DNA of 64,000 nucleotides from Mytilus galloprovincialis. Lineage: Eukaryota > Mollusca > Bivalvia > Mytilida > Mytilidae. This document shows, in pieces, positions 25,701-58,375 of the stretch. The notes beneath the pieces are model-generated. The model was not told where the DNA came from and ran no database searches. It was given only the letters and a program-made list of their open reading frames with translations. Location: positions 38,592,458-38,656,457 of the forward strand of contig NC_134842.1 of assembly GCF_965363235.1 (NCBI RefSeq). Direction: 5' to 3'. The number at the start of each line of letters is the position of its first letter. Position 1 is the first letter of the stretch. The position numbers were made by a program, and so were the translations under genes.

Positions 25701-28700
25701 CCAGTTCTTCAACTGCGTCTCCATAGCGACCATGTTTGGATTTCCCGCGAAATCTTTTTGATGTAATCAGAGCAGTATGAACATGGTTCCAGCTAACTAC
25801 CAGTAAAAATGGTGCATTATTGTTCGTACTGTTTTCCATGAACTCAATGCTTTCCTTAGTATAACGTTCAGACAAAGTCTCTAAATTTATTGGCTGTTCA
25901 ACGATATCTAAATTACGATACAGCAAAGAGTTGAGCAGGATCATATTTAGAAACGCAAAGAAAAAATATGACCACAAAAAAATCAACGAAAAAAGTACAA
26001 ATATTACTATTTTAAGTCCAATGTATTCTCTCTTGTAAAGAAAATACATAGTTAGCATCGTCACAATAACACTTGTTAATGCATACCAGCTAATCCTTGG
26101 AATTTGGTGATAGAGAAGGCTTGATCCATCATTGTACCAGTCTTGAACGTTTGTTAGAGGATGTCCATAATAATAATCAAATCCGTGGTTATTAGGATGG
26201 AATATATTGTCGTTATATTTTGATTTACTTAGTCCAAGATGCCATTTTCCTTTAATAAAGAATTCATTCAAATTAAAAGTATTAAGATATATATTTAAAA
26301 ATACATAGGGAGAATTCCCATTTTTATCATGTAATTATTTGGTGCTTTCAGGGCTTATATTAAGAGACGCAACCCAAATTTTTATGATCACGTCAACGTC
26401 TGTACACGATTTTGACACTTTTCATTTGATGTCAAGGAAAGTTTTGTCCGTGTTGTAAACTAGAGTTCATCGAAAGATACAAAGGCCCTGTTGATAAATA
26501 TATAAGTATACGGAAAGGAAACGAGCGCTGTAAGGAGATTGAAACAATATATGCTGGTCTTGACGTATAGATTAAAGGTACTGACGTTGTTTATCATCTT
26601 AATTACATGATGTAGTGTTGTTATTTGTCTTTTGTACGCCTACATTTTTAACGTTTACTGTTGAGTCCATTTTTTTTTGAAATATACTTTTGGCGTGGCT
26701 TAGTATTTATCAGGTTGGGAACAAACCCTCTATATGGTGATTATACATGTATAGAGGGATAATACTTCTTTAGAGGGATAATTATAATTTTATCCCTCTA
26801 AAGAAGGATTATCCCTCTATAGAGGAGTATTTTAGTTTAGATTGGATTTAAAGCAAATTAGGGCAGAATGGCATTTTCTACTTAGTATGGCAGTAACCTG
26901 CAACAGTTGATGCACCAATTGATGTACTTAATTTAACATTTAAATATAGACATGCCCAGTTTACTGATTATTTGACTAAATATCCAATCTATTGGTCACC
27001 ATGATTGAAATCTGTGAAGATCAGGTAAATTCCACTCACTTATGCCTCACTGAACAGAATTTCTATTGTTACATTTAACATAAAACTTCAAAGTCAACTA
27101 TCCCTTTTGTTGTTGATCAGATGTTCAGATAAGTATACAATAGATTGCAAGTTTTGTCACTTTAGCAGAAAACTGGCCATTACAATATTTAGTAAAGTGC
27201 AATAATTGATGCATATAATGCTAGAAATTATAGCCAATAAAACTAGAAAATGCCATTCTGCCCTAATTTGCTTTAAATCCAGTCTAAACAAAAATACCCC
27301 TTTATAGCGGGATAATTTTATTCCTCTAAAGAAGGATTATCCATCTGTACAGGTATGATCACCATATAGAGGGTTTGTTCCCAATCGGTTGAAAGAGGCA
27401 GAAGCTGTTATCGAAACAAAAGACCCATCTGCCGCGAGGGCTAAACAGAAGATATCTGAAGGTATTGAACTTTTAAATTATCGGCAAAAATTAGTAAAGA
27501 TGGCAGACTCTTCGGCATTTGGGTTGAAATTGGTTCAGGAGTATACCGCAAATCCTTTGGCGGACGATTCCGAAGATGACAGAAAGATATTTCGGGCACA
27601 AAACAGAGCGGAAAGGAAGATCAAAGCAGACAGAGTAAAGAGGAGATCCCGCGCTGACCCTTATGAAAAACCAGAGAGTTCCAGTGGAAGCAGAGATAGG
27701 CAGACATTATCAAGGAAGCTTGGTGTTTGTTATAATTGTTACAAGCCTGTCACTCGCAGAATGACGGTTCAGTCAGGTTGATGAGGGTAATGACCAGACG
27801 TCTGGTCATTTAAATTTACATGTAAACGTTTTGACACCAGTAGGTAAATTGAATAAGGCAATACACAAATGGAAGGAGACGGGTACAAGTGAGTACATTT
27901 TAAAAGTAATAGAGCAAGGCTATGGTATACCATTTAAAAGTCTCCCAGACTTATGATGAATCAGCTAAAAGAACTGCTAAACCTGTTGTTAATATGAAAG
28001 ACCAAGTCACTACTGATATCTTAATTCGGTTATGTTTTATGTTTCAATTTTCTACAGATTTACTGGTAGTTAGGGATCTTTAGATGACTTTGTTAGGTTT
28101 CAGTTTTTTTTTACGTTTTAATGAGTTAAGTCAGCTAAGACGTAACGATTTTTTCGTAAAAGATGAGCATTTAGTTATTAAGATTAGGTGAAGTAAGACT
28201 GATCAGTACAGATCAGTTGATGAAATTTTAATTTGTAAAGGTCATACTTTGGCTTGTCCTTATGCTATGTTTTTTTAGATATGCCAGTTTAGCCGAATTA
28301 GCTTTGGATAGTGATATGTTTTTATTTCGACCAATGTACAGAAATAAGAAAAATATGCATTAATTAGTATTAACAAACCTATTAGTTACACTACTGCTAG
28401 GGAGTGTGTTATTAAGAGATTAAGACTAGTTGCACCTGAATTGAATCTTGGGTTGCATTCGCTTAGGTCTGGTGATGCCACTATGGCGGCAAATTCAGGT
28501 GCCAATGAAAGGTGCTGGAAGCGCCATGGTAGGTGGAAAAGTGATTCAAGCAAAGACGGCTACGTAGCCGACTTCGTAGAAAGTAGGTTACCCGTATCAA
28601 AGACTTTATTTATTTTCTTATTTTTTCTATCTTTGTTGCTCTGTGCAGTACTCGAGCTAGTCAACAACATAAGTTTGTGTTGTGTTTTTCTTTAAATAGT

Positions 28701-31700
28701 TGAGTTTATATGTATTAAGTGGAAAGAAGACTAAAAAATGCCCGAGGCACATAAGTATAACGGGAATAATTGATTGTCTTCTTGCGCCTGTGTGATACAT
28801 GTACGTGAAGGTGTAGGAATTTTTGGTGCCAAAAAAATAGGTTGTAAAGTGACTGTTTTATATAGTTAATTCTAGCCTGTACTTCGTACTGTGAACCTCG
28901 TATTTTTAAGGGTTTTTAAGGAAAAAAGATAAGCATATTTTTGTATTTTGATAAATATATTGATTTTTATGTAGGTTGATTGGCTATACAAACGTAATCG
29001 TATTTCGACTTTTGTACCAAAATTTTTTATATCCCTTGAGTCCTAATGACTCGCTTTCTTTTCTATTTCAATATTTACAAACAAAATTAAAAAATGTATG
29101 TTTTTCTTTTTCTCATTTGATTAGTGAGGTCCAACATTTAGAGTTTCGTTGACATTGACAAAAGGACACAGGTTTCCTAAATTGGGTTTTCCTGGGCCGC
29201 CACGAAACATTCATTTATTCAGTTATTCAAATACAAAAGGTCAACATTTATGAGTATATATTTTTGTTGAACAATGGTGTTATTGACTTGTTTTCACATT
29301 GTATAGTGTATAATATGTTTATATTGATCATTTGTCTTATCAAATCGGCAGCTCACAATTTGCAGTACTCGAGCTAGTCAACAGAAGACATCTATCTCCT
29401 CAAAGGACTAAATGACACCTATAGGTCACCGTAAGGTCTTCAATAATGAGAATAACCCATACTACATTTCAGCTTTAGCTATAAAAAGTCCCGAAATAAA
29501 AAAGTAAAACTGTTAAAACGAGAAAACTAACAGATTTATGAACAAATTAGTGAACAGAAAAACTTATTTGTTGTATAGCAACGAACGACAACCCTTGAAT
29601 TGTAGTTTATTTATTTACCTATTAATCCAGTTCTATATCCTTTTGACTTGGCCTGTTCTGCAATTGTAACTTCACTTTGTGGCAATCCTGCTGAACTTGC
29701 AAGAAATAAAATTATTCCAGCTCTTGATGGTGGAGTTGGTACCATTCCTGTGAAACATTATGTTAAAGGCTATAATAAATTTTATTCGTTTAGCTCGCAT
29801 AACCATACACATTATACCTTGTATTATATAAGTATTATAACCAATACTAACTCGAACAATTCAGCGCCCTCTTACGATCAGTGTCCTCTAGAGGGCTTGC
29901 AGACAACAAAAAGCTGTGGACGCGTTAGTCCTATACAAATTGTAATGGTCTTTCGGGGGTAGATGTTGTGATCGTATTAACGACTGGAGTTTTGGGTTAC
30001 CTAAATACTAGGAATTAAAACAGAACTATTTCATTGTTTTCTTGGTTAATCTAATTTGAAACTTTTGCAACACAGCATTGCTCTTTGTTTGGTCATACGG
30101 TTATTTTTCTTGAAAAGACTATAATTGCAGAATATGCGACGTAAATGATGAAATGTGCACATGAAATAGGACGACTGTATGTATGTGATGCTTCTCTAGT
30201 AAACATTGGGCATTTAGGAGTACATGTAAGAACAAAGACGTGTCGGCTCAGCGTCAGTATAATGTACTCGGTAGAGTAACATGTCTTATTGCCGATTGTT
30301 ACATTGTGAACTAGCAAATCAAACAGTTCTTGCTCATCATGTCGATTTGAACAGGGTTGATTATTCCTAAAATTTAACCCCCTATATCCCACATCCAATA
30401 ATTAAGTGTGTCATCCCTTTCACTTAAAATAATCGGTTACACCAGAAATCGTCATACATGATTGAACAGTAGGAATTTGCTCTAAAAAAAAGTATGTCAT
30501 CTATGACAAACGAGACGATTTTAATTTTGAAATTATAAATTTCCCCCACCTTAGTAGCAATATACCAACTTCACCTGCAGATGGGATATATATTTTTCAA
30601 CTTATTCGATATTCAAGAGCTTGCAGCTTCTACTCCGACTTTGTAAAACGTCATCAGTGTCTGAGTAGAAAGTTGATGAACCAGGGTTATGTCAAAGAAC
30701 GTCTCGTCCTTTTTCTAAAAAGTTCATCGGAAGGTACCAAGACCTTGTTGATAAATATTCCGTATCAACTTCTCAAATAATACACGATGGTCTTGATGTA
30801 TAGATTCTGCGTACTGATGCTGTTTATCATCTTAACAACGTGTTTTATAGTTCTTTCATTTGTCTTTGTTCTATTAATAATATTACTTTTACTGTTGAAT
30901 GGTTTATGTGATATTCGTTTGACGTGGCTCGGTACTTATACATCTCGTCAATGTGTTTGTATTGGCTTTCATTTTTTGGTGGTTTGTTTTGTATATGCGA
31001 CTTTTTGTATTTCTTTTGTTCTTATAACGTCACTCTGTACTTTAAAAGATCCTGTCTGTATGATATTGTTCTATTATATGTCATTCTGATATATTTCTAT
31101 TATGAATTACTATATACGTTGAACCACAAACGTCAAAATCATTCAATCGCGTATTGGAATTTACTATTTGTGGATTCTTATAAATTCTATATATAACTTT
31201 TGGACTAGTTTCAATCTCGGTCTATTTCTGAAATTTATTCTTACATACTTTTGATTTTTTAACCCTGTATGCAATGTCAATGTAAAATTTTAAAATCGTT
31301 TGTATGCACATTGAACGACAAATTTATGTGACGTATAAAATTTTCTGACGTCAGATACTCAAATCAAAGAATGTGTTCGTAGATAGTAGATATTTTTGTG
31401 TTCTGTTAAATTGTTCCTTTTAAAATTGTTATACGATGATGACTGATGTACCCATATTTTGACTATTTTATTTATTGTGTCTGTTTATTTAACGCATCAA
31501 TGTAAATATAACGGAATTTGATGAGACTCACATTAAAGTGAGAGGGTTAGCGCTATAGAACCAGGTTTAACCACCATTTTCTACATTTGAAAATGCCTGT
31601 ACCAAGTCAGGAATATGACAGTTCGTGTCCATTCGTTTTTGATACGTTTTGTTATTTGATTTTGCCATGTGATTATGGACTTTCCGAATTGATTTTCCTC

Positions 31701-31994
31701 TAAGTTCAGTATTTTTGTGATTTTACTTTTTACATCCGTACCTGTTCGAGAAGGATATCGTCCCGTCAACATCGCAGATCTACTAGGTGTACACAGAGAT
31801 GAAGCTGCAAGATGGTGAGTTAGTCTGGCTCCTTGACTAGCTAGCTTATCAATACTTGGGGTAGGTATAGTTTTGTTTCCGAAGCAACCCACGTCACCAT
31901 ATCCCAAATCATCGGCAATAATAATTAGAATATTTGGTGGTTTCTTCGCGGAAATGATAGAAAATACGAGTAAAGTAACAATGGTTTGCAACAT
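22382..31994 (-). CDS. Steryl-sulfatase-like gene B (five coding exons, 568 aa)
   Basis: Tandem paralogue of gene A. CDS = join of minus-strand exons 31994-31742, 29747-29619, 26249-25551, 24449-24165, 22722-22382, all introns phase 1 and GT-AG. Exons 2-5 have exactly the same lengths as in A (129, 699, 285, 341); exon 1 is one codon longer. Key residues are all present: D28-D29 in ADDLGYGD, C68 in CTPSR, GKWHLG, a two-helix membrane hairpin in exon 3, [19 protein letters not shown], and [20 protein letters not shown]. The hairpin region is the most divergent from A, while the active-site segments are close. Predicted membrane-bound ER/secretory sulfatase; substrate unknown. Introns hold a decayed extra exon 4, a foldback element, a DIRS-like fossil and dispersed repeats, but the exons themselves look intact. 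Confidence 0.9.
23735..23905 (+). repeat. Dispersed copy related to the 355-bp unit
   Basis: It carries CCTTAGCCGTATTTGGAAAA, CTCAATGCTCTTCAACTTTA, GTAGACGAAACGTGC and CTAGTACCTTTGATAACTAT, the complete family order, in intron 4 of sulfatase B. Confidence 0.65.
24165..24449 (-). CDS. Sulfatase B exon 4
   Basis: 285 nt, acceptor TTTGCAG|GTGGCA, donor AGAAG|GTAAAT. It encodes [40 protein letters not shown] and [18 protein letters not shown]. Confidence 0.92.
24599..24970. mobile_element. Long-armed palindromic element in intron 3 of sulfatase B
   Basis: The left arm, from ACAGTTAAAATATTAAAGCA through TGATTGG (about 170 bp), is repeated in inverted orientation on the right, ending TGCTTTAATATTTTAACTGT. 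The arms differ by scattered substitutions and small indels around a ~30-bp centre. No coding content; a foldback/MITE-type DNA element. The target duplication is not clear. Confidence 0.8.
25118..25213 (-). pseudogene. Decayed extra copy of sulfatase exon 4 (5' part)
   Basis: Reading the minus strand from 25213, the text [11 protein letters not shown] aligns with [12 protein letters not shown] of exon 4, and downstream GATATCAATGTTCT, ATTTGGAAAACGGAC and CTACAGCAGGGTGACCTTTG match exon 4 of gene B on the plus strand. The acceptor AG is lost and the frame meets a stop (TAA) soon after, so it cannot serve as an exon. Only about the first third of exon 4 is recognisable. It sits in intron 3 between exon 3 and the palindromic element, in the same orientation, consistent with an old tandem exon duplication. 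Confidence 0.75.
25551..26249 (-). CDS. Sulfatase B exon 3
   Basis: 699 nt, acceptor TTAAAG|GAAAAT, donor AAAG|GTGTGT. It encodes [26 protein letters not shown], the membrane hairpin ([15 protein letters not shown] and [20 protein letters not shown]), [10 protein letters not shown] and [20 protein letters not shown]. Confidence 0.92.
26480..26712 (+). mobile_element. Penelope-like 3' tail fragment
   Basis: CCCTGTTGATAAATAT, ATGCTGGTCTTGACGTATAG, TTTATCATCTTAATTACATG and TTTGGCGTGGCTTAGTA correspond to 30745-30940 of the fragment in intron 1. Non-coding. Confidence 0.6.
26714..27387. mobile_element. Non-autonomous DNA transposon with long terminal inverted repeats
   Basis: Left end TTGGGAACAAACCCTCTATA and right end its complement; arms of about 160 bp continue to AGGGCAGAATGGCATTTTCT on both sides. 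Inside the left arm a second perfect hairpin is built from TTCTTTAGAGGGATAA and its inverse (about 26768-26809). No coding content; target duplication not established. Intron 2 of sulfatase B. Confidence 0.82.
27388..28620 (+). mobile_element. DIRS-like tyrosine-recombinase retroelement fossil (broken)
   Basis: A fossil of the tyrosine-recombinase (DIRS/Ngaro-type) retrotransposon group. The 5' part has a Gag-like, charged segment ending in a CYNCYK zinc-knuckle-like motif. The 3' part has the C-terminal recombinase signature [18 protein letters not shown] and [19 protein letters not shown] reverse-transcriptase part is not recognised between them. The element is clearly broken in several places and looks moderately old. 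It abuts the inverted-repeat element at 26714-27387 and lies antisense in intron 2 of sulfatase B. Confidence 0.7.
28646..29383. repeat. Pair of short direct repeats beside the DIRS-like fossil
   Basis: A 22-bp direct repeat beginning GCAGTACTCGAGCTAGTC occurs at about 28646 and 29362, roughly 715 bp apart, on the 3' side of the recombinase remnant. DIRS/Ngaro elements are known for split direct repeats at this place, so these may be terminal remains. Confidence 0.5.
29619..29747 (-). CDS. Sulfatase B exon 2
   Basis: 129 nt, acceptor TTCACAG|GAATGG, donor AATAG|GTAAAT. It encodes [20 protein letters not shown] and [19 protein letters not shown]; nearly the same as exon 2 of gene A. Confidence 0.88.
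30495..31090 (+). mobile_element. Penelope-like C-terminal fragment with 3' tail
   Basis: The plus-strand frame at about 30500-30780 carries [34 protein letters not shown] and [15 protein letters not shown], the C-terminal blocks of the 10195-12033 RT, followed by a hydrophobic-looking, T-rich 3' tail. 5'-truncated and broken. The 100- and 90-codon frames at 30787-31196 are tail sequence. Confidence 0.7.
31105..31730 (+). repeat. Dispersed ~620-bp element (AAATGCCTGTACCAAGTCAG family)
   Basis: It matches, inverted, the insertion at 50475-51092 along its length: ACGTTGAACCACAAACGTCA.., TTCTGACGTCAGA.., CACCATTTTCTACATTTG, CTGTACCAAGTCAGGAATAT, and the 3' end GTGATTTTACTTTT. Shorter copies lie at 53975-54290 and 61735-61990. 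No coding content recognised. It lies antisense in intron 1 of sulfatase B. Confidence 0.75.
31742..31994 (-). CDS. Sulfatase B exon 1
   Basis: ATG at 31994, directly preceded by TTTTCAG as in gene A; donor ACAG|GTACGG. It encodes signal peptide [16 protein letters not shown], then [20 protein letters not shown] and [20 protein letters not shown] dispersed element ends only about 12 bp beyond the donor. Confidence 0.88.
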
Positions 31995-32820
31995 CTGAAA
32001 ATGTATAAATTAAGTTCGTAAAATGGTAAAACAATATCATTTTCACGTGCATGAAGTTAATTTTAGATTTTGTTTGTTTTGCAAAACATTAAAAAAATGT
32101 AACGGTTCAATTTACAACTTAAGTCAATTTGTGTACTATTTGTTTTCTTTTTGTCAAATATGATCTGGCTACAGTACTGACTTCGACAATGAGCAAACCC
32201 ATACCACATAGTAAGCTATTATTAAAAGATTCCGAAGTAACAAATGTATAACAATTCAAACGAGAACAGTTGTGTTAAAAAAATGCAATTGATTCCTAAC
32301 AAAAATAAGATCATCTCATGGTTTATCGTAAAGTTACCGCTACGTCTGTTCTAAATGACACGCATGATGTTCACTCAGGAGAGGTAATTATAAAACATAT
32401 CAGTCGAATTTCAAATTTTCTTAGCCTCCATGGAGACGAAGAAATTTCTTTTAAAGCTGTTAAAACATGCATGTGGATGCTAACAATAGCCGTGTTGAAG
32501 GCGCAGGCGCTTTGCGATTTTGATATGAAGAGAAGCAATATGTTCTTTTGAGTACCTTTATTTATTTTGTGCCATTGGATGATAAATCCTGGCCTTCATT
32601 TCTGTAATTGGTTCCGGGAAGTTAATTTTTAACTATATTAAAGTACGAAGAATAAATATCTCTTTTACCAAAAAAAATTCATATTTTACTTTTTATCTTA
32701 ACAAAAAAATGTGTTATTGCAATGTTTAGTCCACAAGTCGCAATGAATATTTAGACTTTAGTAAAATAAAGATTTTTTTTGTTTCTTATAAAAAAAACTA
32801 TGGAATTTATAACTTATTTT
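31995..32820. other. Upstream region of sulfatase B
   Basis: The 5' UTR exon and promoter implied by the acceptor in front of the ATG should lie here or further right, but I cannot pick them out. No repeats recognised. Confidence 0.35.
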
Positions 32821-34550: not shown

Positions 34551-37500
34551 ACGGTTACCACCAAGTTCGCTCGAGATCCCCGCCAACTGTTAAGGAGGAT
34601 CGATACACCATTGTCAATGGTCTGGATAAAAGTTAGGAAAGGCAAAATTATGAAAAAAGTATCTGAATTTCAAAATAAAAAGCTCACAACAAAAGAGACA
34701 AAAAGTCCAGGGTCAGCTTTGCCTAGCTTTGAGTATTTTTACAAGAGTTCTAAATTGAAATTTACAAATAAATTATATCGTAAATAGATTACATTACTTT
34801 TTATGTATAGTGCTGTAGAAACTGCTTATTTCTACTTGGTAATTTGATTGGAAAATAACTCTGCATTTTACGTCTCTGGTCTGTTAAAACACATTCAATA
34901 ATAGTAGTTAGATATTTGAATTTAACAAATTAAAATTGCCGATAACAACATGAAATAACTGTATTTATTCAAATTTGTCTTCTTAAAATTATACTTAAAT
35001 CAACAATTCCTATATTTATTATGTTTATGCCAAATAAGCATATATTGTATAGTTCAAAAGTTTATCTTTCGGACTACTTGTATTATGATAATCCGTTTAC
35101 TTATAAGCTTACCAGAGTCCAGATCCACATTGAGCTCACAAGCAATTTTGATATGTTCACGTTAATACAATGTAACCGAGTTTTAACTACGAGAGGTAGT
35201 ATATTTACATACTTTTATATGATGTTAAATATTTTGATAGACGACGGTTTACATTATCAAATTACGATAAAGAATATTTATATTAAAAAATAAGACAAAA
35301 TTGGAGAGAATTGATGCAACAGTTATAACTGAATGATACTTTGCTTACCCGAGTCGAGTTCCTCATTGAACTAAACGAGCTATATTGATGTGAAAACTTA
35401 AATTCATCATGAGAGTTTACCGTAGTATTTACATACTTTTATATGTTTATTTAATTAATAGACGACGGTCTACATTATCAACTCACGTACTGATAAAAAA
35501 AAACTTTGATACTAGCAATTAAGGCAAACGTGGAGAGAGTTGATGCAACAGGTATAAGTGAATAATACTTTGCTTACCAATGTCTAGTTCCACATTGAGC
35601 TAACAAGCTATTTTGAAGTGAGAACTAAAATTCAATGTTATGAGAGGTAGTATTTTATTAATAGACGACGGTCTTCATTATCAACTCACATACATGCATA
35701 CTGATTAAAAACTTTTTATACTAAACAAATAAGACAAAATTGGAGAGAGTTGATGCAACAGGTATAATTGAATGATAATTTGCTTACCACAATAAGGTTC
35801 TACGTTGAGCTCACAAGCTACTTTAATTTGTTCACGTTTATTCAAGTTACCTATTATATCAACGAGCGGTAGTATTTACATACTTTTATATGTCAATTTT
35901 TTTATAAATAGGCGACGATCTACATTATGAACTTATAATAATTATGACAACACTATAGTGAATAAATTCAACAGGTGGGTAATATGTGTTATTATTAGCT
36001 TACTAAAGTCTACTTCCATATCATGCATATTGAGCTCACAAGTTATCAAATTACCAAGTAGAAATAAGCAGTTTCTGCAGCACTATACATAAAAAGTAAT
36101 GTAATCTATTTACGATATAATTTATTTGTAAATTTCAATTTAGAACTCTTGTAAAAATACTCAAAGCTAGGCAAAGCTGACCCTGGACTTTTTTGTCTCT
36201 TTTGTTGTGAGCTTTTTATTTTGAAATTCAGATACTTTTTTTATAATTTTGCCTTTCCTAACTTTTATCCAGACCATTGACAATGGTGTACCGATCCTCC
36301 TTAACAGTTGGCGGGGATCTCGAGCGAACTTGGTGGTAACTACAGATTTTAAAGTTATTTACAAGAGTTCTATATTGAAATTTACAAATAAATTATATCG
36401 TAAATAGATTACATTACTTCTTATGTATAGTGCTGTAGAAACTGTTTATTTCTACTTGGTAATTTGATTGGAAAATAACTCTGCATTTTACGTCTCTGGT
36501 CTGTTAAAACACATTCAATAATAGTAGTTAGATATTTGAATTTAACAAATTAAAATTGCCGATAACAACATGAAATAACTGTATTTATTCCAATTTGTCT
36601 TCTTAAAATTATGCTTAAATCAACAATTCCTATATTTATTATGTTTATGCCAAATAAGCATATATTGTATAGTTCAAAAGTTTATCTTTCAGACTACTTG
36701 TATTATGATAATCCGTTTACTTATAAGCTTACCAGAGTCCAGATCCACATTGAGCTCACAAGCAATTTTGATATGTTCACGTTAATACAATGTAACCGAG
36801 TTTTAACTACGAGAGGTAGTATATTTACATACTTTTATATGATGTTAAATATTTTGATAGACGACGGTTTACATTATCAAATTACGATAAAGAATATTTA
36901 TATTAAAAAATAAGACAAAATTGGAGAGAATTGATGCAACAGTTATAACTGAATGATACTTTGCTTACCAGAGTCGAGTTCCTCATTGAACTAAACGAGC
37001 TATATTGATGTGATAACTTAAATTCATCATGAGAGTTTACCGTAGTATTTACATACTTTTATATGTTTATTTAATTAATAGACGACGGTCTACATTATCA
37101 ACTCACGTACTGATAAAAAAAAAACTTTGATACTAGCAATTAAGGCAAACGTGGAGAGAGTTGATGCAACAGGTATAAGTGAATAATACTTTGCTTACCA
37201 ATGTCTAGTTCCACATTGAGCTAACAAGCTATTTTGATGTGAGAACTAAAATTCAATGTTATGAGAGGTAGTATTTTATTAATAGACGACGGTCTTCATT
37301 ATCAACTCACATACATGCATTCTGATTAAAAACTTTTTATACTAAACAAATAAGACAAAATTGGAGAGAGTTGATGCAACAGGTATAATTGAATGATAAT
37401 TTGCTTACCACAATAAAGTTCTACGTTGAGCTCACAAGCTACTTTAATTTGTTCACGTTTATTCAAAGTTACCTATTATATCAACGAGCGGTAGTATTTG

Positions 37501-39714: not shown

Positions 39715-41440
39715 CATGAATGCATGCGACTTGCACCTTTCCCTTTGCAATTAAAAAAACGAACAGACAATACCAAGGCAAAAACGAGAATCGAATCATC
39801 TTCTGTAAGCTTGATGTTGTTATGCTCTCCCTTCTTATTTTCTGATATTTTATACGCATATGGATCTTGGTTATAACAAAAGTACTCACTTCAGTTTCTT
39901 ATTCGACAATTATAGTATGATCCAATTCACTACACATAACATTTTTTTTTATTGCTGGTACTTGTTAAGTTACTAAACCCAGTCAGTGACACCATTGTCC
40001 TATATTTTGCCTTGTTTTAAAATAATAACTGACCATTTAAATCACTTGATATAGGATGTGCATAGTGGACGGATAATATAACTTATAATAACAATGCGAG
40101 AAATTTATAGGGACATTAACTTAGAGATATACACCAAATTAAAATATAATATTTCTTTTTGATCAATCATTGATGAAAGTGGAATATTGATATGTTTATA
40201 TCGGGTTGTGTGACCGTCGTCAGTCTTAGTAGGTCATCTCGGAGGTTAATTAGATTGCGTCCAGAATAAAATACACACGAAATGATGTTTGATATTATGG
40301 AGTCCTTGCATTTTTAATTGTTTTTTTTTCAGACTTATTGTGATTTGGATATACGTTATAGTATGTTTTACATAAAATATGAAATTGGTGTCAAATCGGT
40401 AAACATGAATTAATGCAGGAACTTTTTTTATTCAATATTTTACATATGAGATTAGTAATAGAAACATGTTGATAATGCTATATTGTTACTGCCCCTGTGT
40501 AACATTTTGAGTCTTAAACTATATTTCCCCTTCACTCTTTAAATGTTGATCTAACAGTTTCACTTTAAAAGTTTTCATTTTCGAAATTATATTAAAATTA
40601 TTTGCCGGAAAACTCTGCTTTCATTATAGGAATATTTCAGTCATTTAATTCCATGAACAATCCAAAGTGTGGTTGTGTATCAACTACGCAATGGTAACTT
40701 TATGCTTCAATTCTACAGACTCACATTTAACAATGAATTAATTATACAATAAACTACACATCTTTGGAATAAATTTTAATATTTAAACCCGTGAAGCAGA
40801 TGCAATAGGAAAACGCAAAACGAAATTTTAAAACTTTAATCCAAATGGTGATGCCGAAACAATATGATTTAGAAGTCGCCAACTCAGTATTATTCTTACA
40901 CAACTTCCTTTCAAAATTATAATCTGTATTAGTTAATTTGATGTCTCATCTGTCTTCCCTTTGCGGTGTGTATCGCGAAAATTCGCATCATTTATTTTAT
41001 CAAATGTATATTAAATTCAGAAATACGAAGTAAGCTTTTTGGAAAATCTTTGCTAAAAAAACTGTCAATTAAATATTTATCCATAATTATTCAGGATAAA
41101 AATGAAAATACCCTTTAAACATGTGTTTGAGTTTATGAGACGATCGAACATATTCCTCATTGTTAAGATGGTAAATGACCATACATCCATCATCCAAATT
41201 AAAAAAAAAAACCTTTTATCTCGTGTTCTATCGTTTTTTTCTCATATTTTGCGGCACTTACATTTTCTGTCCAATTTATAAAATGGTTGAAATGATGTGT
41301 AATCATGTATGTCTGCTCTCATATATGGTATTGATTAATAGGTCAAATAGAGAAGATTTCATAAGTCTGTTTGTCTGTTCGACTTATGTCTTATACAATT
41401 TTGTGTTTATGCAAATACAATATATTGTTACACTGAAACT
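39715..41440. other. No feature seen
   Basis: AT-rich sequence; no supported gene or repeat. Confidence 0.35.
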
Positions 41441-41445
41441 CGCAT

Positions 41446-42125
41446 ATTCTCTCCCCTCTCATCTCCTCACACACTGTCTCTCTCTCTCTCTTGCACTCTG
41501 TCTTCTCACACTCACACTCCTCTCTCCCTTCCCTCTTCTCTCGCACTCTCTTCTCTCACACTCTCTTTTCTCACAATGTGACTTCTCTCACACTCTCTTC
41601 TCTTACACTCTCACTACGCTCAAACTATATCTACTCTCACACTCTACTCTCACAGGTTGTCTACTCTCATCCTATTACCTGTCTCTCTCTCTCCTCTCAC
41701 ACTCTCTAGAGACCACACTCTCTCACCTCTCACACACAGAGTGGAATCTCTCTCTCTCTCTCGCCTCTACTCACACACTCACACTCTCCTCTCACACACT
41801 CAGTCTCTCCTCACACACTCACACTCTCTCTTCTACTCTCTCCTCTCACACACTCGTTCCTCTACTCTCTCCGCTCACAGTCTCTCCTCTACTCACACAC
41901 TCTCTCCGCTCACACACTCTCTCCTCACGCTCTCTCCGCTCATATATTCTCTCCTCTACTCTGTCCTGTCTCCTCTACTCTACTCTCTCCTCTTCTCTCT
42001 CCTCCTCTCTCCTCTTCTCTCACACACTTTCTCCTCTACTCACTCTTCTCACACACTCTCTCTTCTCACACACTCTCTCCTCTCACACACTCCTCTCACA
42101 CACTCTCTCCTATCACACACAGACT
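41446..42125. repeat. CT/CA-rich low-complexity tract (~670 bp)
   Basis: It is built from CTCTCTC, CTCACACACTC and TCTCCTCT phrases with almost no purine other than A. The long open frames crossing it (323 and 186 codons of SLSHTL repeats) are a by-product of stop-free CT sequence. Confidence 0.95.
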
Positions 42126-42224
42126 GTAATTTCAGCCCTACTCTGAAATTTAGCCCAATCCTTCAATTTAACCCAACCGTTCACTTAAGCACGACCTATA
42201 CTGACCTTAAAATTTAACCTACTT

Positions 42225-47825: not shown

Positions 47826-48024
47826 ATGTGGAAAGCCAGTCCAAGGTGTGTCAGTGGCGCTGCCGTCAGTAAACTTCTACAGTGTACACTTTCCGACAAA
47901 CCATGTAATGATTACGATTTCTGTGACTGGCTGTGGACAGAAACGAAAGACAAAAGGATGAAAGCATTAAACACCAACTTTGTTCAAGGCGTTAAAGATG
48001 GAATGCTCCATCCAACGTCTTTTG
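47826..48024 (+). CDS. TenA-like exon 1
   Basis: It ends TCTTTTG|GTAAAT in phase 1. It encodes YDFCDWLWTETKDKRMKALN and FVQGVKDGMLHPTSF. Residues before about 15 are weakly supported. Confidence 0.78.
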
Positions 48025-51000
48025 GTAAATAAATTAATAAATCATTTTAAAATGCGCTTCGGGTGTAGAAAATTTATAATAAAAAGTGTAATGTTCAATG
48101 TATTTTGGTAAGGGACGGTGTATTTTCAGAGGAACCTTTCATAATTTATGATGTAATACACGTTATATCAGTATAAAGTGAGTACAAATTTCATCAATCT
48201 TGAAATGAAATGTATAGTAAGTTAATTATATCATTTGTGACGTACAAGAAAAAGATCTAACTAAAGAGTTTATAAAGGTTACGTAGTACAAAATGACTAC
48301 TGTATTTGTTTAATTTGTAACGATTAAGGTGCATGTTGACAAAGCCTAGTTATGCGGAAACCTTTTTCTTAATCTAAAACGAATAGAAGAGCGTTCATTT
48401 TTCGTATTTGTTATACAATATGAAAATAAATGTCTGTTTGCAGAACTATTCAAAACCCTTTTTAAGAAGTCTATTTCACCAAATTATTCTATTACTTGAA
48501 GTCATTAATCTGAGAGTTAAACGAATACCATAATTATATTAAATTATTGATTGCCACAGATGCTTACATGTATGTTCTAAATGTTGTTGCTAAAAATCCA
48601 GTCATCTATTCAATGATTATGCAATAACCTAGTGCGACAAAAACCGAACTTAACTTGCAAGGCGGACCAGGGCGGATGCAATAGTAGGACAAGGTCTTCC
48701 TAACCTTTTAGAGCAACTGCAATCTGATAATTTATGTTGCAGAGATTAATTCAGAGATTAATTCAGAGATTAATTTAATACAGTTATGTATAATTGCTTA
48801 ATATATAATTGCTTATAATTAATTAACAAAACATCGAATGTTACTTCTAGGTTGTGTCAATACATAACATATTTGACCAATTAGATGCCAAAATACTGTT
48901 AATTTCAACTATTAAAGTAGTTGATCAAATTTGGAAAAGACGAAAGGAGGCGAGTTTTTTCAACTTGAAATTGACCTAAAATTTCTTATAGCAATTATCA
49001 GGATTCAACAGATTGGGACCAGATATCCAAGCGTCCGTCATGTTTTGACTGATTTTTAGAACATTCAGATATTGTAAAATTTGTATAAATTAGATATTGA
49101 CAAATCACTTGGAAACTCAACATATACCCTCACGCCACTAAACAATGAGGAAATCCTGAATAATCATAGGTCTGTTCTATGTTCCTTTGGATTTCAACCA
49201 AAGATGAAGAACTTGATCTTCCATCACTGTATTGAATACCTAAACTACATAAGTGTCCTTACAAAAAACGGTATATTGCTGGGTCTTCCAAGTGCTCCAC
49301 GAAACTTCTTTCTAAGTTATTAACATCTATTTTATCAGCAATCAAAGCCGGGCTTCAAATTTATTGTGAAACTGCTTATATCAGAGGTGACGTGAATCAG
49401 ATGTAGATACTAAAAAATTCCAATTTTTTTTTAGAGTACATACAATCTAACTCTGTTTCATCTTGCAATAGTATTAAAACATTTGGCTTTTCTCATCTTT
49501 ACACAAGTATTCTACATTCCAAACTTAAAGACAAATTGAAAGAGTTGGTATTGCTTTGATTCATAAAAAAGAATGGCCAACGTAGATACAAATATCTTGT
49601 CTTAGGGAGGGATAAATTCTACTTTATAAAGGATAACTCTGATTGAAACAAAAGAATCTCTGAATCTGATATTATCAAGATTCTTGATTTCTTGATTGAC
49701 AACATATTTGTTACGTTCGGAGGACGTGTATTTCAACAGACTGTCGGCATTCTAATGGTAACCAATTGTGCCCCTCTTCTTGCCGACTTGTTTTTTTTTT
49801 ATTACCGTGAGGCTGACTTCATACAGGAACTTCTTAGGAAGAAAGATGAGAAGTAGTTAGCAATATCATTAAGGAGGCTCGAGGGTACAAAAAAAATCAG
49901 CAAAAATTGAAACATTTGTTTTTTTCATTACAAATTTCATTTGTTACACTATTAGATGTTACTTTATGATATGGTACAAAAATCGACCAAAAAAATCAAT
50001 TCGTTTTAGACCCAGATGACTTTTAAAATTTTAATATCATTGGAAAAGCTCCAAATTATCTCCCTTTGGTGAAAAAAAAGGCTATTTGTTTTGCATAAAA
50101 ATTGAAATAACTTTTTTAATTATTCGGTGACCTATATTTTTAATTATTATTTTCAAATGAACTGTACTTTAACTAAACTATTGTAAAATTTAAGCGATTT
50201 CTGTAATTTAGTTTTTTTATTTCGATTTTACCTTTTTTCCTCCTTTTAATTTAACAGAAAAAAAGGACCTTAACAAAAAGTGAGCTTAAATTAACGGTGA
50301 CCCATATTTTTATTTTATTCTTCCATTAGATATAGGATAAAGTTTATTTAAAGAAAAAAATAGCGAAATCCTATATTTAAAAAATGATTTAGACCCGCGA
50401 GCCCCCTTAACTTAAATTCAAAATTTGGTAGCTATGTTGAACATATCTATCTTATCGAACTAGAGATGAAAAGTAAAATCACAATATACTGAACTCAGAG
50501 GAAAATCTAATCGGAAAATCCATAATCACATGGCAAAATTAAATGACAAAACACATCAAAAACGAAAGGACAAGAACTGTCATATTCCTGACTTGGTACA
50601 GGCATTTTCAAATGTAGACAATGGTGGGTTAAACCTGGTGTTATAGCGCTAAACCTCTCACTTTGTTGACAGTTTCATCAAATTCCGTTATATTTACAAT
50701 GATGCGTGAACTAAACAGACATAATACATAAAATAGTCAAAATATGGGTACAGCAGTCATCATCGTGTAACAATTTTAAAAGGAACAATTTAACAGAACA
50801 CAAAATCATCTATCTACAAACACATTCATTGATTCGCGTGTCTGACGTCAGAAAATTTATACGTCACATATTTTTGTCGTTCAATGTTTATACAAACAAT
50901 TTTAAAATTTCACAGCAATGTTAGCATACAGGGTTAAAAAATAAAAAGTATGTAAGAATTAATTTTAGAAATAGACCGAGTTAAAAATAGTCCAAAAGTT

Positions 51001-54000
51001 TTATTGAATTTATAAGAATCCACAAATAGTTCATTCCACTTCGCGATTGAATAATTTTAACGTTTGTGGTTCAACGTATTTTCTAATCATGATAGAAAAA
51101 GGATACAACAGATACAGTTTAGTCGGCCTGATATCTTGACTTACATCTAGAAATTGACAATTGATACGATATTCCCGTGCTTGCTTTTCATATCATGATT
51201 TTCTTGATAGAGGGTTGCTGCTCACAAGGAAGCTATTAAGCCAAGAGTTCAAATGGTGAAGTTGAAATCATCCCTTCGTAAATTTTACGTACGCCATCAC
51301 GAGTTGGTTGACCGTTATGGAATAACCGTTTCACAGATGATATCGGATATGTTCCTTACGTCGTAGCTACAATCCCCTTCCTTTCATGAATGTGACCTAC
51401 CGAATTAGACTATTTCCCGGATATGTTATAACATGAGCAACACGACGGGTGCCACATGTGGAACAAAATCTGCTTATCCTTCCGGAGCACCTGATCTTAC
51501 CCCCAGTTTTTGGTGGGGTTTGTGTTGCTTATTCTTTAGTGTTATATGTTGTTTCATGTGTACTATTGTTTGTCTGTTGTTTTTTTTTTCATTTTTAGCC
51601 ATGGCGTTGTCAGTTTGTTTCAGATTATGAGTTATACTGTCCCTATGGTATCTTTCGTCCCTCTTCTTTGACAAAAACCCAAATGCCCAAGTATTATGTA
51701 TATTATACAAACTTGCACGTATCTTAGTTATTAGACACATCAGTTTAATTGATTTTGCTTGAATGAATTTTCAGGAAAAAAACAGATCATAGATTAATGC
51801 AGTTTTACTGATCTAACTCTGATACTAAATCTTTTTAAGATTTCATTCATCTATACTTGATATATTTCTGACTGTTCGTTTATAAAAGTTACGTAACCGG
51901 TTTCGAAATGTGCGTCTGGCGTACCACAAATTATGGTTTTAAGAATCACTCGGTAAATTACACTGCTGGTAGATGTTTTTTAACAGGGGAAATCACCAGC
52001 ACAGTAGTCAGCCCTTTTTGGTTTTGACATAAATCAACATTAATATATTCATTTTCTGTTGGTTTATTGTTTATTAATGTAGAATTATTGGACACATTGA
52101 TAATTTTCTACCCCCGGAATATATTACCTTAGCAGTATTTTATGGAATTGTCCGTTTTTAATGCAAACAAGATTTGTATTTGATTTGGCCCTCTATCTAA
52201 TTTGAATCTGGCGCCACTTATGAGTATTGTGTCGACGAACCACGCATTATGTATGCCAAACTTTATAAGTCTTACACCGTTAGTGAGATAAACATATTGA
52301 TATGAGACAAATCCCAATTGCCTTGCACAAGATATGTAATAAATGAGTATATTTTGAGCAATAACCAATCACGGAAATGACCTAATATATTCAAACTCAT
52401 TATTTAAAACGAAGCTAAATAGAAAGGAATATTAGAATATCAGCAACGAAACATAGACAGCAAAGAAATATAGACAGCAAATATGTGTAGACCATTTTAA
52501 ACGAATTCTTACACTTCACTCTAACTCATAATGAACAAAGTATTTTTGAAATTCAACACCGCCCTCCTGTACTTGATGTTGGTGAAATTAGTCGTCTTTG
52601 ACCTAAGATGTTACAATTCTCAATGTTTTGTTTTCTCTTTTGTTGCAAGTGTATTTTCTATGTATTTTAGGGGCTTACACTGTGCAAGATGCAGTTTATT
52701 GCCAAAAAGCACAGGAATCTCTTTCAGTGGCTGCAAAACGTGACAAAATGGGTCCATTAAAAATATTTCTAGAGCATGAATCGACTGATTACAAAAGGTA
52801 TTATTATTTTAAGTATGCTTAATTTTAGCCTTTACTAGTCATGATTGATGATTTTCTAAAAATTGTTTAATATTTCACAGCGGTATCATACTTTAAATTC
52901 GTTTAAACCTGTTTATTTACTTTTAACCTCAATTATTTATCCCTTATAATTTTTATTAACTATGTATTTGCATTCAGGAATCGCAGATCAAATTTATTCG
53001 CTCATTGTGTGTTAATTTGCGTTTTTTTATTGAGTTAAGCATTCCAATGGATATTTTATAGTGTGTTTTTCTATGTTTTGATGTTCTACTATTGTTTCAG
53101 ATAAGGGAGACGTTTGGTACCATGAAAACGTTTAATCCCGCTGCACATTTTTGCACCTGTCTTAAGTCGGGAATCTGATGTACAGTACTTGTCTGTTTAT
53201 GTAGTTCAAACATGTTTCTCGTTTGTCGTTTTTATATAGATTAGACCGTTGCTTTTCCCGTTTGAATGGTTTTACACTAGTAATTTTTTGGGGCCCTTTA
53301 TAGCTTGCTGTTCGCTGTGAGCCAATGTTCAGTGTTGAAGGCCGTACCTTGATCTATAATTGTTTACTTTTATAAATTTTTATTTGGATAGAGAGTTGTC
53401 TCATTGGCACTCATACCACATCTCCCTATATGAAATAACGACAAAATTATCTTATTTCTACCTGTGTGGCGTCAAACGCGCAATTCTTTGTCTAAGCTTA
53501 TATTAATGTACCCATGTGCCTGTCAGTGTAAAGATTGGGTCCCAGCACTTAGAATATTTCAAACCTTTATGGGTTGATTTTACATAAACAGATATAAAAA
53601 TTAAATCGTATAATAAAAAAGCAAAATGAGGTTGTTAAATTTGATGTATGCCTTTTTGTTACAATTGTTTTGTTTTTTTATAGTGATTAAGGTGGTACCC
53701 AACACTTTAACTAAAATTAATTTGGCTCGTTTAATTTTCATTAAATTTTGTCAAAGTATTTACTTTGACCCTTTAACAAAAATATAAAAATTTCAAAAAC
53801 TTTGAACCAACCGTTTAATCAGAAAAATTACACTGGTTATATAGCAGTTTGACAAACTACAATTTTGATCATTGAGAAGCTTAATATTCCCTTAAGAACA
53901 CAACGTCATTAAAACGTTCTGCTGATTTTACAGAGTTATCTCCCTGTAGTGTTAGGTACCACCTTAAGATGATTATACAATATTGACTGTTGTACCCCTG

Positions 54001-57000
54001 CTTTGATATTTTTACCCAATGTGTCTGTTTTCTTCGCGCATCGTTGTCAATATAATTGAATTTGATGCGACTTTCACACAAGTGAAAAATTTAGCTAGCT
54101 GTAAAACCAGGTTTAATTCACCATTTTCTACCTAAGACAATGCCTATACCAAGCCAGGAATATAACAGTTTTTATCCATTGGTTTGATGTGATTGAGATT
54201 TTGATTTTGCCATTTGATAAGGGTCTTTCCTTTTTGAATTTTCCTCGGAGTTCAGTATTTTTTGTGATTTTACTTTTTTGTATATCAACAAAAGGAAAAA
54301 TCGAAAACAACTGTCGAATTCTTGACTTTGTGTAGCATTATAAGCGTTTCATGTTATACATGCATCACCCTCATGCGAATTAAAACTTAGTCAAAATGTC
54401 ACAATCGGGAATATAACACAATCAGCGAAATTTCAGATCACACATGTGTACTGGTTTACTTGGTTGGTGCACTAAGAAATCTTCATGGTAACCGTACAAC
54501 TTGTGTTGAGTCGATTTCAGCCCTTCTTCCTCATTACTCTGTTAAAGTATTTTTTCTGTAATAAGCATACCTCAATAAAGAAGTCCGTATAGTGTTTTCA
54601 TGCACTAGCATAACGAATTGATTCAGACATAAAAACGACAAACAATTAAGCAGAGGGTATTTTACTATTGAGTATGAAAAGAAGTATACAGTTGGAACGT
54701 TGAAATCATCACGTTAGTCTTCCACCTGTGTAAATATCGTGGAAAATATCAAGATATGAAGAAGGACTTCTACTATCGGTAGTATCCTTAATATTATATA
54801 GTTTTTCTGTAATATCTATATGATGACAGTACTCATTGAAATTAACTCTAAAAAATTAGACATATTCTAATGTCAAAAGATAAAATCTGCCGGTTTTGAC
54901 TGTCCTGGTTTGAAGCAGAGGGCGAGGATACCAACGGGGCAATACATTAGTCAATTGATAAAAATAAAAACGAGGAAATAGACTGACATTAATTAACACA
55001 CCGCTTAACCAAAAAATAAGAGAACAAAAAGTACCACACCAAATAACTAACAGAAGTCCCTTCTCTACTAGTGCGACCTTATCAGAACCTAAGCGTGCTT
55101 GTCTGCTCTACAATCCCCATTGCCATTCTCATTTTTATTTATGTTATATAGCCAATGATGACACTATTTCACTAAATTAGACTAATTATTAGAGGGCCGT
55201 TTAAAATAGTTGTCCAATCCACTATTCTATATTATCATGATTATGGTCAAATGTACCAAAATCAATAAATTAGTTGCAGGGAGTTCGCTTCTCAGTTTCA
55301 AAATAATTAACTTTTCAAAACACTAGTTCAGTCGGAAACCAGGTTGAAATAGAACAAAAGAATCGAAGTTCTCTATTAGAGAAGGCGATAAATGTTTACT
55401 GTATTGTTTACTATAGTGACAAATTTTTAAAAAGTTAATAGAAACAAACAAAACTGCAATTTTCTTCTCAATTACGAGATGTTTTATTTCAAAAACACCA
55501 TTTGCATAAGTTTTCAATTTATCTAGTACATAGTTAAGCAGAACAATTAGATATCAAGTCGACGACATGGGTATCTTTCAAGTTGGATGACAAAAATGCA
55601 TAACCTCCGATTTTTTTGAAAAAATTACCACGGACGGAAAAGATATCAATCTATTAGTTCAGTAATTTTCGTGTCTGCCCTTCCATTATGTGACTGAAGA
55701 AAAAATTCCAAAAATAGGTAAGAATTGTATCGAAAAGAGAAAATCGAGTGCACCTTTTTATGTTAGGGCGTGTTTGAGTTGAGTATTTTGTCTTGATATC
55801 GTTCAAAGTAAGAATATTTCATACATCGTCTCGCTTCAGATTCTATCATTTTTATAAATTAAAGCTACAGGTTGACTTTATAACACAAAAAAATAACAGT
55901 ACTAAAAGATGAAATATATGGGTCAAGTGAAATACCTATCTAATGAGTCACACAAACAGGGAAGGTGTGTTCGAATAGCTATTTCTTTACTGAAAGTACT
56001 TGACGACAGTCTTACAAGTTGGATGATGAAAATGCATATCTTCGAAAAATTCTAATTTTTTGTGTATGATAACTAGGGTTTATAGTCTTCAACCACTAAA
56101 AAATCTAGTCTGCCCTTCCACGAAATATTTAATTAGATTTTTTTTAAATGTTTATGATTTTTCGAAAATTCCACCTAAGAACCGATCAGAAAATAGTTTT
56201 AAGTTGAATCAATGCAGACAAGATCATTAACTGATGCTCATTAGCTAGTTGATACATTTGTCTTTTAAAATATAACTGACATATAAGGATCGTATTGGTG
56301 CAATGTGGATAAATTTATCGGTTTCCAAGAGCAAAATTGGTAGCGCGTCATCGCTACAATGGCTTCCATTTTTACGATTGTGAAAATGAACTGGCGTAAT
56401 GGGGAGATAATTTTGACGAAGTAGGATCCTGACTGTAGTTAATCTTTATAGGGGATTAATAAAGGAAGCAAAAAAACAGTGTGTTTGTTTTAGAGATATT
56501 AGCCATTGAAATTTTGGATGGAAATTGTTCTCTCTTGACTTTTTATAGCTTTATCACTACAAGTTAAAGTTCTCAAAAATTATTAAAGCATAAATTAGAT
56601 TTTATAAGACTTTTACAAATGGCTTATAACTATACATGCAAAAGATTTATAAAAAGAAAAATAGGGGTCAATGGGCAAATTTTTTTTAAGGCATTCAAAT
56701 TGATAAAACCAGAGGATTCCGAAAATCTGACAAAAATTCCAAAACATGACAAGCGAACATCCTTTAATCCGCTTTTATTTTAGCTATTACGAAGATTTAT
56801 TTGACAAATGGCACATAAGAGATGGAAAGGCCATCGAATTGGGAAAAGAATGTCAAGAATATGTTGATATTGTGGCGGATGTGGCATCTAACGATGATGC
56901 GTATTACATGTTAGTGGCATTAATTCCATGCGGACGTTTGTGGCCATGGCTTGGACAACAATTGACTGCAGCAAAGGTATATATATAAAATAGGGACGAA

Positions 57001-58232
57001 AGATACCAGAGGGAAAGTCAAACTCATAGATTGAAAATAAACTGACAACGCCATGGCTAAAAAATACAAAGACTAGCAGACAAATACTAGTACACAAGAT
57101 ACAACATAGAAAACTAAAGACTAAGCAACGCGAACCCAACCAAAAACTGGGAGTGATCCCAGGTGCTCTGGCATGGTAAGCAAATCCTGCTTCGCATGTG
57201 GCACCCGTCATGTTGCGTATATTATTTCAAATCCGGTTAACAGTCTTATTCGGTAGGTCACAATCTTGAAAAGGGACGGGTATTGTACTTACGGCATAAG
57301 TAACATATACGATATCATCTGTGTAACGGTTATACTATAACGGTCAACCAACTCGTCATTGCGTCCATAAAATTAACAAGGGATGATTTCAACTTCACAA
57401 TTTGGATTTCTTGGTTTTATAACTTCCTTGTGAGCAGGAACCCTTTATCATGGAAATCATGATAGGGAATACAAGCCATAGAATATCGTATCAATTGGGA
57501 GATATATACTCCGTATGCTGGCGCTGCTGGAATGTTGCTAAATAGAAAGGGAAAGTTCCCAATTGGGAAACTGAAATCATCTCTTTTGTGGTAAAGTTTT
57601 GTTTTCAGCAGAGCCTCATTGTCAATGCTAGGTGTAAGTCAAGATATGAGGCAGACTTAACTGTATCTGTAGTATCCTTTATCATATATATTTTGCAGAT
57701 GACCTTAACTTATTGACGTATACTATATCTATTTTTTTCATAATCGTTTTTAAACGTACATCTTGATCCTCTTTCAGTCTTTTTTTATATTGGCATGATG
57801 TTTACTCTACAGAAAGAATCTTTTCGGATATAATTCTCTTAGGAATATATACTAGAACACAAAATAATCATATTAAATACTTATTTCATAAACAAAAAAT
57901 GAATATAATTAATATTAATTGCAATTATTTGTAATAAAATATTATAATGAAATATAGAGTACGATATTAGTTTGGTATTGACCTTTCGTATCACATGCTA
58001 ATTTTCTTATATTATATAATTAATATTTTCTATTTATTTGTAGCATGATTTTGGGGCATATACTGACTGGTTCAAAGCAAATTTTGATCCTTCTTATGAA
58101 GGATATAAGAAGTTGGAAGTCCGTGTGAATGCTGCTTTCTCGAAGCAGGAAATAGATAAAAAGAAAGCTCTGGGTATCTATTCCAAATGCATGAATGGAG
58201 AAGCTAACTTTTTTGGTTCAGTACCGATATGA
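47826..58232 (+). CDS. TenA/THI-4 family protein (thiaminase-2-like), four exons, 235 aa
   Basis: CDS = join(47826-48024, 52671-52797, 56784-56976, 58044-58232), all GT-AG. TenA enzymes hydrolyse aminopyrimidines, and thiamin itself, to the thiamin precursor HMP; the mussel protein's actual substrate is unknown. Family pattern seen: FVQGVKDGMLHP then FGAYTVQDAVYC (residues 52-77), ALIPCGRLWPWLG (154-166), YTDWFKANF (179-187), GEANFF (225-230). Against B. subtilis TenA from memory, D73 and Y76 match D44/Y47, C158 matches catalytic C135, E226 plausibly matches E205, but W162 stands where Y139 is expected. 235 aa is the normal TenA length. The start is chosen because a TGA lies in frame 9 bases upstream; an earlier exon remains possible. 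AATAAA at 58306-58311 is the likely polyadenylation signal. No targeting peptide is evident. Confidence 0.85.
49873..50406. mobile_element. TTAA-flanked non-autonomous DNA transposon (534 bp)
   Basis: Ends GGAGGCTCGAGGGT and ACCCGCGAGCCCCC are inverse with two mismatches; TTAA at 49869-49872 and 50407-50410. The RT sequence on either side rejoins at a TTAA present in the intact copy (CCTTTAACTC), confirming the target. No coding content. Confidence 0.88.
50475..51092 (-). repeat. Dispersed ~620-bp element inserted in the RT copy
   Basis: Inverse of 31105-31730. The flanking RT text (CGAACTAGAGAT before, AAAGGATACAACAGATACAG after) rejoins cleanly, so both ends of this family are defined here. 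Confidence 0.82.
51885..52015 (+). repeat. Dispersed copy related to the 355-bp unit
   Basis: GAAATGTGCGTCTGGCGTAC is followed by CACTGCTGGTAGATGTTTTT and CACCAGCACAGTAGTCAG, inverse of the CCACCAGCAGTG / GGTGATACCC linker inside the 6246-7200 array. Confidence 0.5.
52671..52797 (+). CDS. TenA-like exon 2
   Basis: 127 nt, acceptor TATTTTAG|GGGCTT, donor AAAAG|GTATTA, phase 1 to phase 2. It encodes GAYTVQDAVYCQKAQESLSV and KIFLEHESTDYK; holds the QDxxY active-site motif. Confidence 0.88.
53100..53430 (+). repeat. Retroposon-like repeat ending CATTGGCACTCATACCACAT
   Basis: AAGGGAGACGTTTGGTACCA, CACCTGTCTTAAGTCGGGAA, AGCTTGCTGTTCGCTGTGAG and the CATTGGCACTCATACCACAT end form the order I know from an abundant mussel repeat. 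TenA intron 2. Confidence 0.6.
53691..53963. mobile_element. TTAA-flanked non-autonomous DNA transposon (273 bp)
   Basis: Ends GGTGGTACCCAACACT and AGTGTTAGGTACCACC are inverse with one mismatch; TTAA at 53687-53690 and 53964-53967. No coding content. TenA intron 2. Confidence 0.88.
53975..54290 (+). repeat. Partial copy of the ~620-bp dispersed element
   Basis: CTGTTGTACCCCTGCTTTGA, CACCATTTTCTACC, CTATACCAAGCCAGGAATAT and GTGATTTTACTTTT match 31440-31730. Sense orientation in TenA intron 2. Confidence 0.7.
54291..56270. other. TenA intron 2, no feature recognised
   Basis: AT-rich. Two stretches (about 55555-55720 and 55985-56130) share CTTTCAAGTTGGATGACAAA-like / CTTACAAGTTGGATGATGAA-like text and CTGCCCTTCCA, a diverged local duplication. 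No exon seen. Confidence 0.4.
56275..56766. mobile_element. Probable TTAA-type element next to TenA exon 3
   Basis: The right end (AGAGGATTCCGAAAATCTGA.., then GCGAACATCC before TTTAA) resembles the right end of the 9408-9806 element, and the interior GGGGTCAATGGGCAAA resembles its TGTTATGGGGCAAA. The left end was not pinned down. Confidence 0.45.
56784..56976 (+). CDS. TenA-like exon 3
   Basis: 193 nt, acceptor TTTTATTTTAG|CTATTA, donor GCAAAG|GTATAT, phase 2 to phase 0. It encodes YYEDLFDKWHIRDGKAIELG, DDAYYMLVALIPCGRLWPWL. Transposon-derived sequence begins within about 20 bp on both sides. Confidence 0.9.
56988..57690 (-). mobile_element. Penelope-like C-terminal fragment with 3' tail
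   Basis: On the minus strand: [35 protein letters not shown] and YHDFHDKGFLLTRKL, then the family tail with ATGACGGGTGCCACATG and ending near GGTATCTTTCGTCCC. Antisense in TenA intron 3, its end about 12 bp from the exon 3 donor. Confidence 0.82.
58044..58232 (+). CDS. TenA-like exon 4 (last)
   Basis: 189 nt, acceptor TTTGTAG|CATGAT, stop TGA at 58230-58232. It encodes HDFGAYTDWFKANFDPSYEG, VNAAFSKQEIDKKKALGIY and the final NGEANFFGSVPI. Confidence 0.88.
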   Translation, partial: HDFGAYTDWFKANFDPSYEGYKKLEVRVNAAFSKQEIDKKKALGIYSKCMNGEANFFGSVPI

Positions 58233-58375
58233 GAACATTCTTCTTGGTTATTTTTACCTAAAAGGTGACGATAAAAAAACCAAGGAAATATAAATTAAAT
58301 TAGATAATAAAGGTGAAATGTAATTTGTGTGTGTCTGTATTCTGATTGTTAATATTTGTTGGCCAATTGTAATAG

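Follow-up and report, generated by a model that had tools for sequence, protein, structure and literature searches.

A putative TenA-type thiaminase gene of Mytilus galloprovincialis and its relatives in the mussel genome

INTRODUCTION

What would a gene of the TenA/THI-4 family do in the nuclear genome of a mussel? To our knowledge, animals do not make thiamin, and an anti-vitamin activity is known in mussel tissue. We analyzed a 64-kb stretch of Mytilus galloprovincialis DNA (the window) that contains such a gene on contig C5, referred to here as gene A, together with its paralogs elsewhere in the genome.

Earlier papers already place TenA-like genes in both fish and bivalves. A zebrafish TenA-like gene expressed in E. 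coli gave thiaminase I activity, TenA-like homologues were reported from the zebra mussel and other bivalves, and the alewife and carp TenA-like proteins were insoluble, so that their activity could not be tested (PMC9839694). According to other reports, the quagga mussel has thiaminase I activity (PMC3968017), thiaminase is distributed across fishes in a pattern that has been described (PMC10598016), and the BtTenA subclass of TenA proteins takes in animals, molluscs among them (PMC10277260). A 2021 description of MolluscDB lists Thiaminase-2/PQQC among 14 Bivalvia-restricted clusters, each found in five or more of the ten bivalves that were compared with other molluscs and an annelid. The cluster bears the same annotation as gene A, Mytilus edulis and M. 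galloprovincialis are among the species sampled (PMC8059625), and we infer that gene A belongs to it. An earlier sequence-only reading of the window had pointed to a TenA gene in an animal genome; given the zebrafish activity, the bivalve homologues and the Bivalvia-restricted cluster, such a gene is not new for animals or bivalves (PMC9839694 and PMC8059625). Gene A is therefore mainly a useful further member of a published group. What the present analysis adds is a family of eight loci, a tryptophan signature common with an active bacterial enzyme, and a hint of two compartments; a literature search over titles and abstract openings, with few subscription journals included, returned no description of a Mytilus TenA gene family or of a split between leaderless and secreted copies.

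RESULTS AND DISCUSSION

Gene model

Gene A occupies window positions 47826-58232 on the plus strand. Exon 1 (47826..48024) opens with an ATG at 47826 and holds codons 1-66 plus one base of codon 67, exon 2 (52671..52797) carries Q72-D73..Y76, exon 3 (56784..56976) carries C158, W162, and W164, and exon 4 (58044..58232, stop included) carries Y179, W182, and E226. These are separated by intron 1 (48025..52670, phase 1, with GT and AG ends), intron 2 (52798..56783, phase 2), and intron 3 (56977..58043, phase 0), all on the plus strand. Every intron has its GT donor and its AG acceptor, and the exons join to a product of 235 amino acids followed by a stop, reproducing exactly the four-exon, GT-AG, phase-matched model of 235 codons first proposed from the sequence; the QDxxY motif, the cysteine in ALIPCGRLW, W162, and the late GEANFF (E226) that it pointed out are all present.

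A stop codon in frame lies right upstream of the ATG at 47826 (the stop-to-stop frame starts at 47820), and the ATG-TGG opening recurs in two paralogs on the same contig, C5B and C5C. Downstream, an AATAAA read from the sequence at 58306..58311 (plus strand) is a candidate polyadenylation signal, and C5B likewise has an AATAAA less than 100 bases past its stop. Gene A looks like a genuine, apparently intact nuclear gene of the mussel. An Rfam search of the 64-kb window gave nothing at the gathering threshold.

Relationship to solved TenA proteins

The 235-residue protein matches PF03070 (TENA_THI-4) at 32.8 bits (E 7.8e-8, cut-off 22), and the same family was matched at E≤0.01 by all six mussel proteins scanned. 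Because PF03070 was the sole Pfam family listed for gene A up to E 10, there was no better match to an unrelated helical family, and no match to the Paenibacillus-type bacterial thiaminase I appeared within that range. Among solved proteins, the closest is BT3146, or BtTenA (BT_3146, PDB 2a2m and 2a2o), of Bacteroides thetaiotaomicron; the gene A protein matches 2a2m over nearly its full length (E 3.5e-26, residues 18-232) at about 30% identity. The Pfam match above cut-off and the 2a2m match bear out the original call of a TenA/THI-4 gene in an animal genome, and the protein search that it recommended ends at a TenA-type protein. The Bacillus subtilis TenA (1tyh, 1yaf) belongs to the same family and its Cys and Asp align with those of gene A, but the similarity is weak, with 1tyh at E 0.22 in phmmer and 3.3e-6 with a profile of the paralogs. 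When a six-copy mussel profile was compared with the PDB, 18 sequences were found at E≤1: by title, 10 were TenA, THI-4, thiaminase, or THI20 proteins, one was BT3146, five were regulators or hypothetical proteins that we take to be TenA-like, and two were Csy2. An all-helical TenA fold is predicted for the gene A protein from its sequence match to 2a2m.

The active-site residues and the tryptophan signature

Residues were compared over an alignment of 16 rows, comprising six mussel copies, BT3146, and nine plasmid-borne TenAs (eight from bacteria and one from an archaeon) that are not independent of one another, with four cyanobacteria and two close sphingomonads among them. Q72, D73, Y179, and W182 are conserved in 16 of 16 rows. 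C158 and E226 are each conserved in 15, the exceptions being an A in Haloferax and a D in the mussel copy C2e, respectively. Position 76 is Y in seven rows and F in nine, so Y76 is not essential to the family.

Y150, W162, and W164 occur in all seven of the mussel and BT3146 rows and in none of the nine other TenAs. At position 162 itself, the six mussel copies and BT3146 have W and all nine plasmid TenAs have Y. The residue is Y in the B. subtilis stretch too, where we take it to be Y139; at this position of the TenA_C tyrosine, gene A has W162. The other TenA_C-type residues are an active-site Cys at B. subtilis C135 and a Glu at E205 (PMC10277260). C158 aligns with the C135 position, and E226 corresponds to the Glu by alignment with the late Glu of BT3146, the B. 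subtilis stretch compared ending before that point. In cell-free extract, BT3146 degraded thiamin at 5.5 mU/mg versus 0.72 in the control (PMC10277260), which means that W at this position does not by itself abolish activity there. The replacement of the B. subtilis tyrosine by W162, put forward in the sequence-only reading as something that could change activity, holds as an alignment, but the active BtTenA has the same W. A unique lesion at W162 is likewise ruled out by its presence in all six mussel copies and in BtTenA.

A tree of the same 16 rows, with the mussel as the only animal and the partial B. subtilis row kept out, joins the mussel copies and BT3146 with support of 100/99, whereas the mussel rows alone form a group with support of just 77/88. 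The phylogeny called for at the outset was run with bacterial and archaeal TenAs and does group the mussel with BT3146; the join may be false, as the tree tool warns of long branches for BT3146, Haloferax, and Pseudosulfitobacter. The branch of the mussel/BT3146 group measures 1.48 changes per column. A plasmid search with BT3146 returned two cyanobacterial records, both already in the plasmid TenA set; scans of genome contigs and of viral contigs for relatives, and a phage search for TenA relatives, returned none.

A TenA family at eight loci

A protein search of the mussel genome (1.385 Gb in 331 contigs) gave 31 exon matches at E≤1 that fall into eight TenA loci, and repeating the search with C2c, a divergent copy, gave 28 matches at E≤0.01, all within the same eight; these counts are lower bounds. 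In the same genome, the decapeptide repeat of mussel byssal protein 1 is matched at up to 99% identity within an open frame of 770 residues on contig C4, as expected for Mytilus or a near relative. Seven of the eight loci have the same exon order and are readable with the same phases. Besides gene A, contig C5 carries C5B (C5:96975455-96969235), 58 Mb away, which has four exons in the same phases, is readable throughout, and is 66% identical to gene A. C5C, near 96.99 Mb on C5, is a remnant in which exon 1 is broken and exon 4 is present, and its exons 2 and 3 were not found. The remaining five copies, a to e, form a cluster on contig C2 at 30.755-30.839 Mb. Within it, the near-copy genes d and e (C2:30817220-30839397) diverge in different ways, with a stop in the exon-2 part of d and a late E-to-D change in e. 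Both also have an earlier exon-2 donor in the same phase; we preferred the later donor, which matches the other copies.

Between gene A and C5B, dN/dS is 0.51 (bootstrap 95% interval 0.34-0.76, with a fraction of 0.0004 of 5,000 replicates at or above 1). Compared without gaps, the intron 1 flanks of the two genes reach 30% and 36% identity, and their exons 66% at the amino acid level. The dN/dS value speaks for selective constraint between gene A and C5B, and at 0.51 it leaves room for relaxation. The dS of gene A against the C2 copies is saturated in three of four comparisons and 2.99 in the fourth.

Leaderless and candidate secreted copies

The C5 and C2 copies appear to differ at their N termini. 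Gene A and C5B each begin in one single exon. By hydropathy, gene A shows no hydrophobic leader among the N-terminal windows computed, with a peak of 0.93 over 11 residues. Gene A is probably intracellular, because it has no recognizable signal peptide, although an upstream exon may supply a leader. In all five C2 genes, as read by eye, the LW motif is directly preceded by an AG acceptor whose phase is common to them, implying a first exon farther upstream and, apparently, an extra intron. Upstream of C2b, C2d, and C2e (three of five, d and e being near copies and so not independent) lies a candidate leader exon, hydrophobic and bearing a CAG|GTAA donor. The scan returned between 4 and 17 candidates for each gene, so chance could account for single finds; it gave no convincing leader exon for C2a and C2c. 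N-x-S/T sites number 3, 4, 4, and 5 in C2a, C2b, C2c, and C2e, translated without leader exons, with shuffling P values for so many sites of 0.11, 0.020, 0.024, and 0.012. Gene A and C5B have none, a shortage that does not reach significance by shuffling (P 0.46 and 0.26).

The N-glycosylation sites and the apparent extra upstream intron suggest secretion of the C2 copies, and together these features of the sequences suggest, rather than show, a leaderless C5 set alongside a secreted C2 set. A tentative extension, which we regard as possible but less likely than not, is that one mussel has two thiaminase systems: intracellular, unglycosylated C5 TenAs that would dispose of damaged or toxic analogues of thiamin brought in by filter feeding, and a secreted, N-glycosylated C2 array that would be the source of the known anti-vitamin activity. 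A defined set of genes with this apparent split offers concrete targets for tracing the activity to a particular copy and learning its purpose.

Breakdown of thiamin or salvage of its pyrimidine

Gene A is likely to be an intact gene of the mussel nucleus that encodes a thiaminase of TenA type, belonging to the BtTenA/animal subclass. In the mechanism that we propose, C158 of an all-helical TenA enzyme would attack thiamin, or an analogue of it that is damaged or toxic, at the pyrimidine, assisted by D73, Y76, Y179, and E226, whose catalytic roles we assume from their counterparts in the B. subtilis enzyme. The thiazole would be released and the pyrimidine handed to water or a small nucleophile; the zebrafish relative uses pyridine or nicotinic acid in this way. 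The product of gene A would work within the cell, and those of the C2 cluster would be secreted. Two close counterparts also differ from gene A. BtTenA, with the same Y150, W162, and W164, is bacterial and occurs in extracellular vesicles (PMC10277260). The zebrafish homologue also has introns and an adjacent paralog but, compared by description only, has three exons and a signal sequence (PMC9839694), unlike the four exons of gene A.

A TenA_C-type salvage enzyme, which would hydrolyze the aminopyrimidine left by thiamin degradation and yield HMP that the mussel or its microbes could use again, retains some appeal through the conserved C158, E226, and D73 and through the top NCBIfam match of gene A, the ThiD-TenA fusion model PRK14713 (E 2.2e-18). 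That match stays below the model's threshold, however (66.3 bits, with 512 needed), and the salvage_TenA equivalog TIGR04306 scores 28.9 bits against a required 130. The genome encodes a thiamin pyrophosphokinase (TPK, E 1.6e-30), and in the same insensitive profile search ThiE reached at best 20.3 bits and ThiM 18.3 (cut-off 27 for both), with nothing for ThiD at E≤1. These absences agree with the rule that animals make no thiamin and would leave HMP with no known user in the animal; they are weak, because an exon-by-exon search with PF03070 gave 0 matches and missed gene A itself. The published animal relative, moreover, has thiaminase I activity (PMC9839694). Salvage, one of the two roles put forward in the sequence-only reading, is accordingly unlikely, and breakdown of thiamin or its analogues is the more likely role; as a candidate for thiamin cleavage, gene A is upheld by its family, its active-site pattern, and its kinship with BtTenA.

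Slightly more doubtful is a protein of TenA fold that no longer carries out thiamin chemistry and acts on another substrate or as a regulator. Such a loss would fit the W where Y is otherwise conserved, the branch length of 1.48 changes per column, and the paralogs that are decaying or varying (the C5C remnant, the stop in C2d, and the E-to-D change in C2e), but the catalytic residues of gene A are intact and BtTenA with the same W degrades thiamin in extract (PMC10277260). Assembly contamination or recent capture of a bacterial gene is extremely improbable. The relatives found outside the mussel genome are all bacterial or archaeal, among searched sequences that held no animals; against this stand three spliceosomal introns whose phases agree across seven loci, spread over a contig of 103 Mb, which holds the window, and another of 116 Mb, and contamination was rejected on this intron structure and the paralogs.

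Two further observations concern the thiamin pathway search. A weak ThiE match (L033) was discarded because its frame resembles another family, which we take to be that of dihydrouridine synthases. A TPK-like unbroken frame of 246 residues (L034 1393-2133, in the C8:15195583 region) is a possible retrocopy, and three separate TPK matches lie on C13.

Neighborhood of gene A

Elsewhere in the window, sulfatase-like frames lie on the minus strand at 14107-32009, with PF00884 matched in three of the eight frames scanned; by eye they form two similar sets, suggesting tandem sulfatase genes. An open frame of 614 residues at 10189-12033 (plus strand) has a reverse-transcriptase match of 27 bits, just below the Pfam cut-off of 29.6. 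Broken pieces that resemble it by eye lie at 3898-4581 (minus strand), at 49078-51366 in intron 1 of gene A, and at 57417-57638 (minus strand) in intron 3. About 1 kb of CT-rich low-complexity repeats with strong GC skew spans roughly 41175-42217, and the long open frames there are probably meaningless. Two near-identical frames of 115 residues (34946-35293 and 36566-36913), 1.62 kb apart and each followed by a tandem repeat with a 210-base period, are a recent local duplication.
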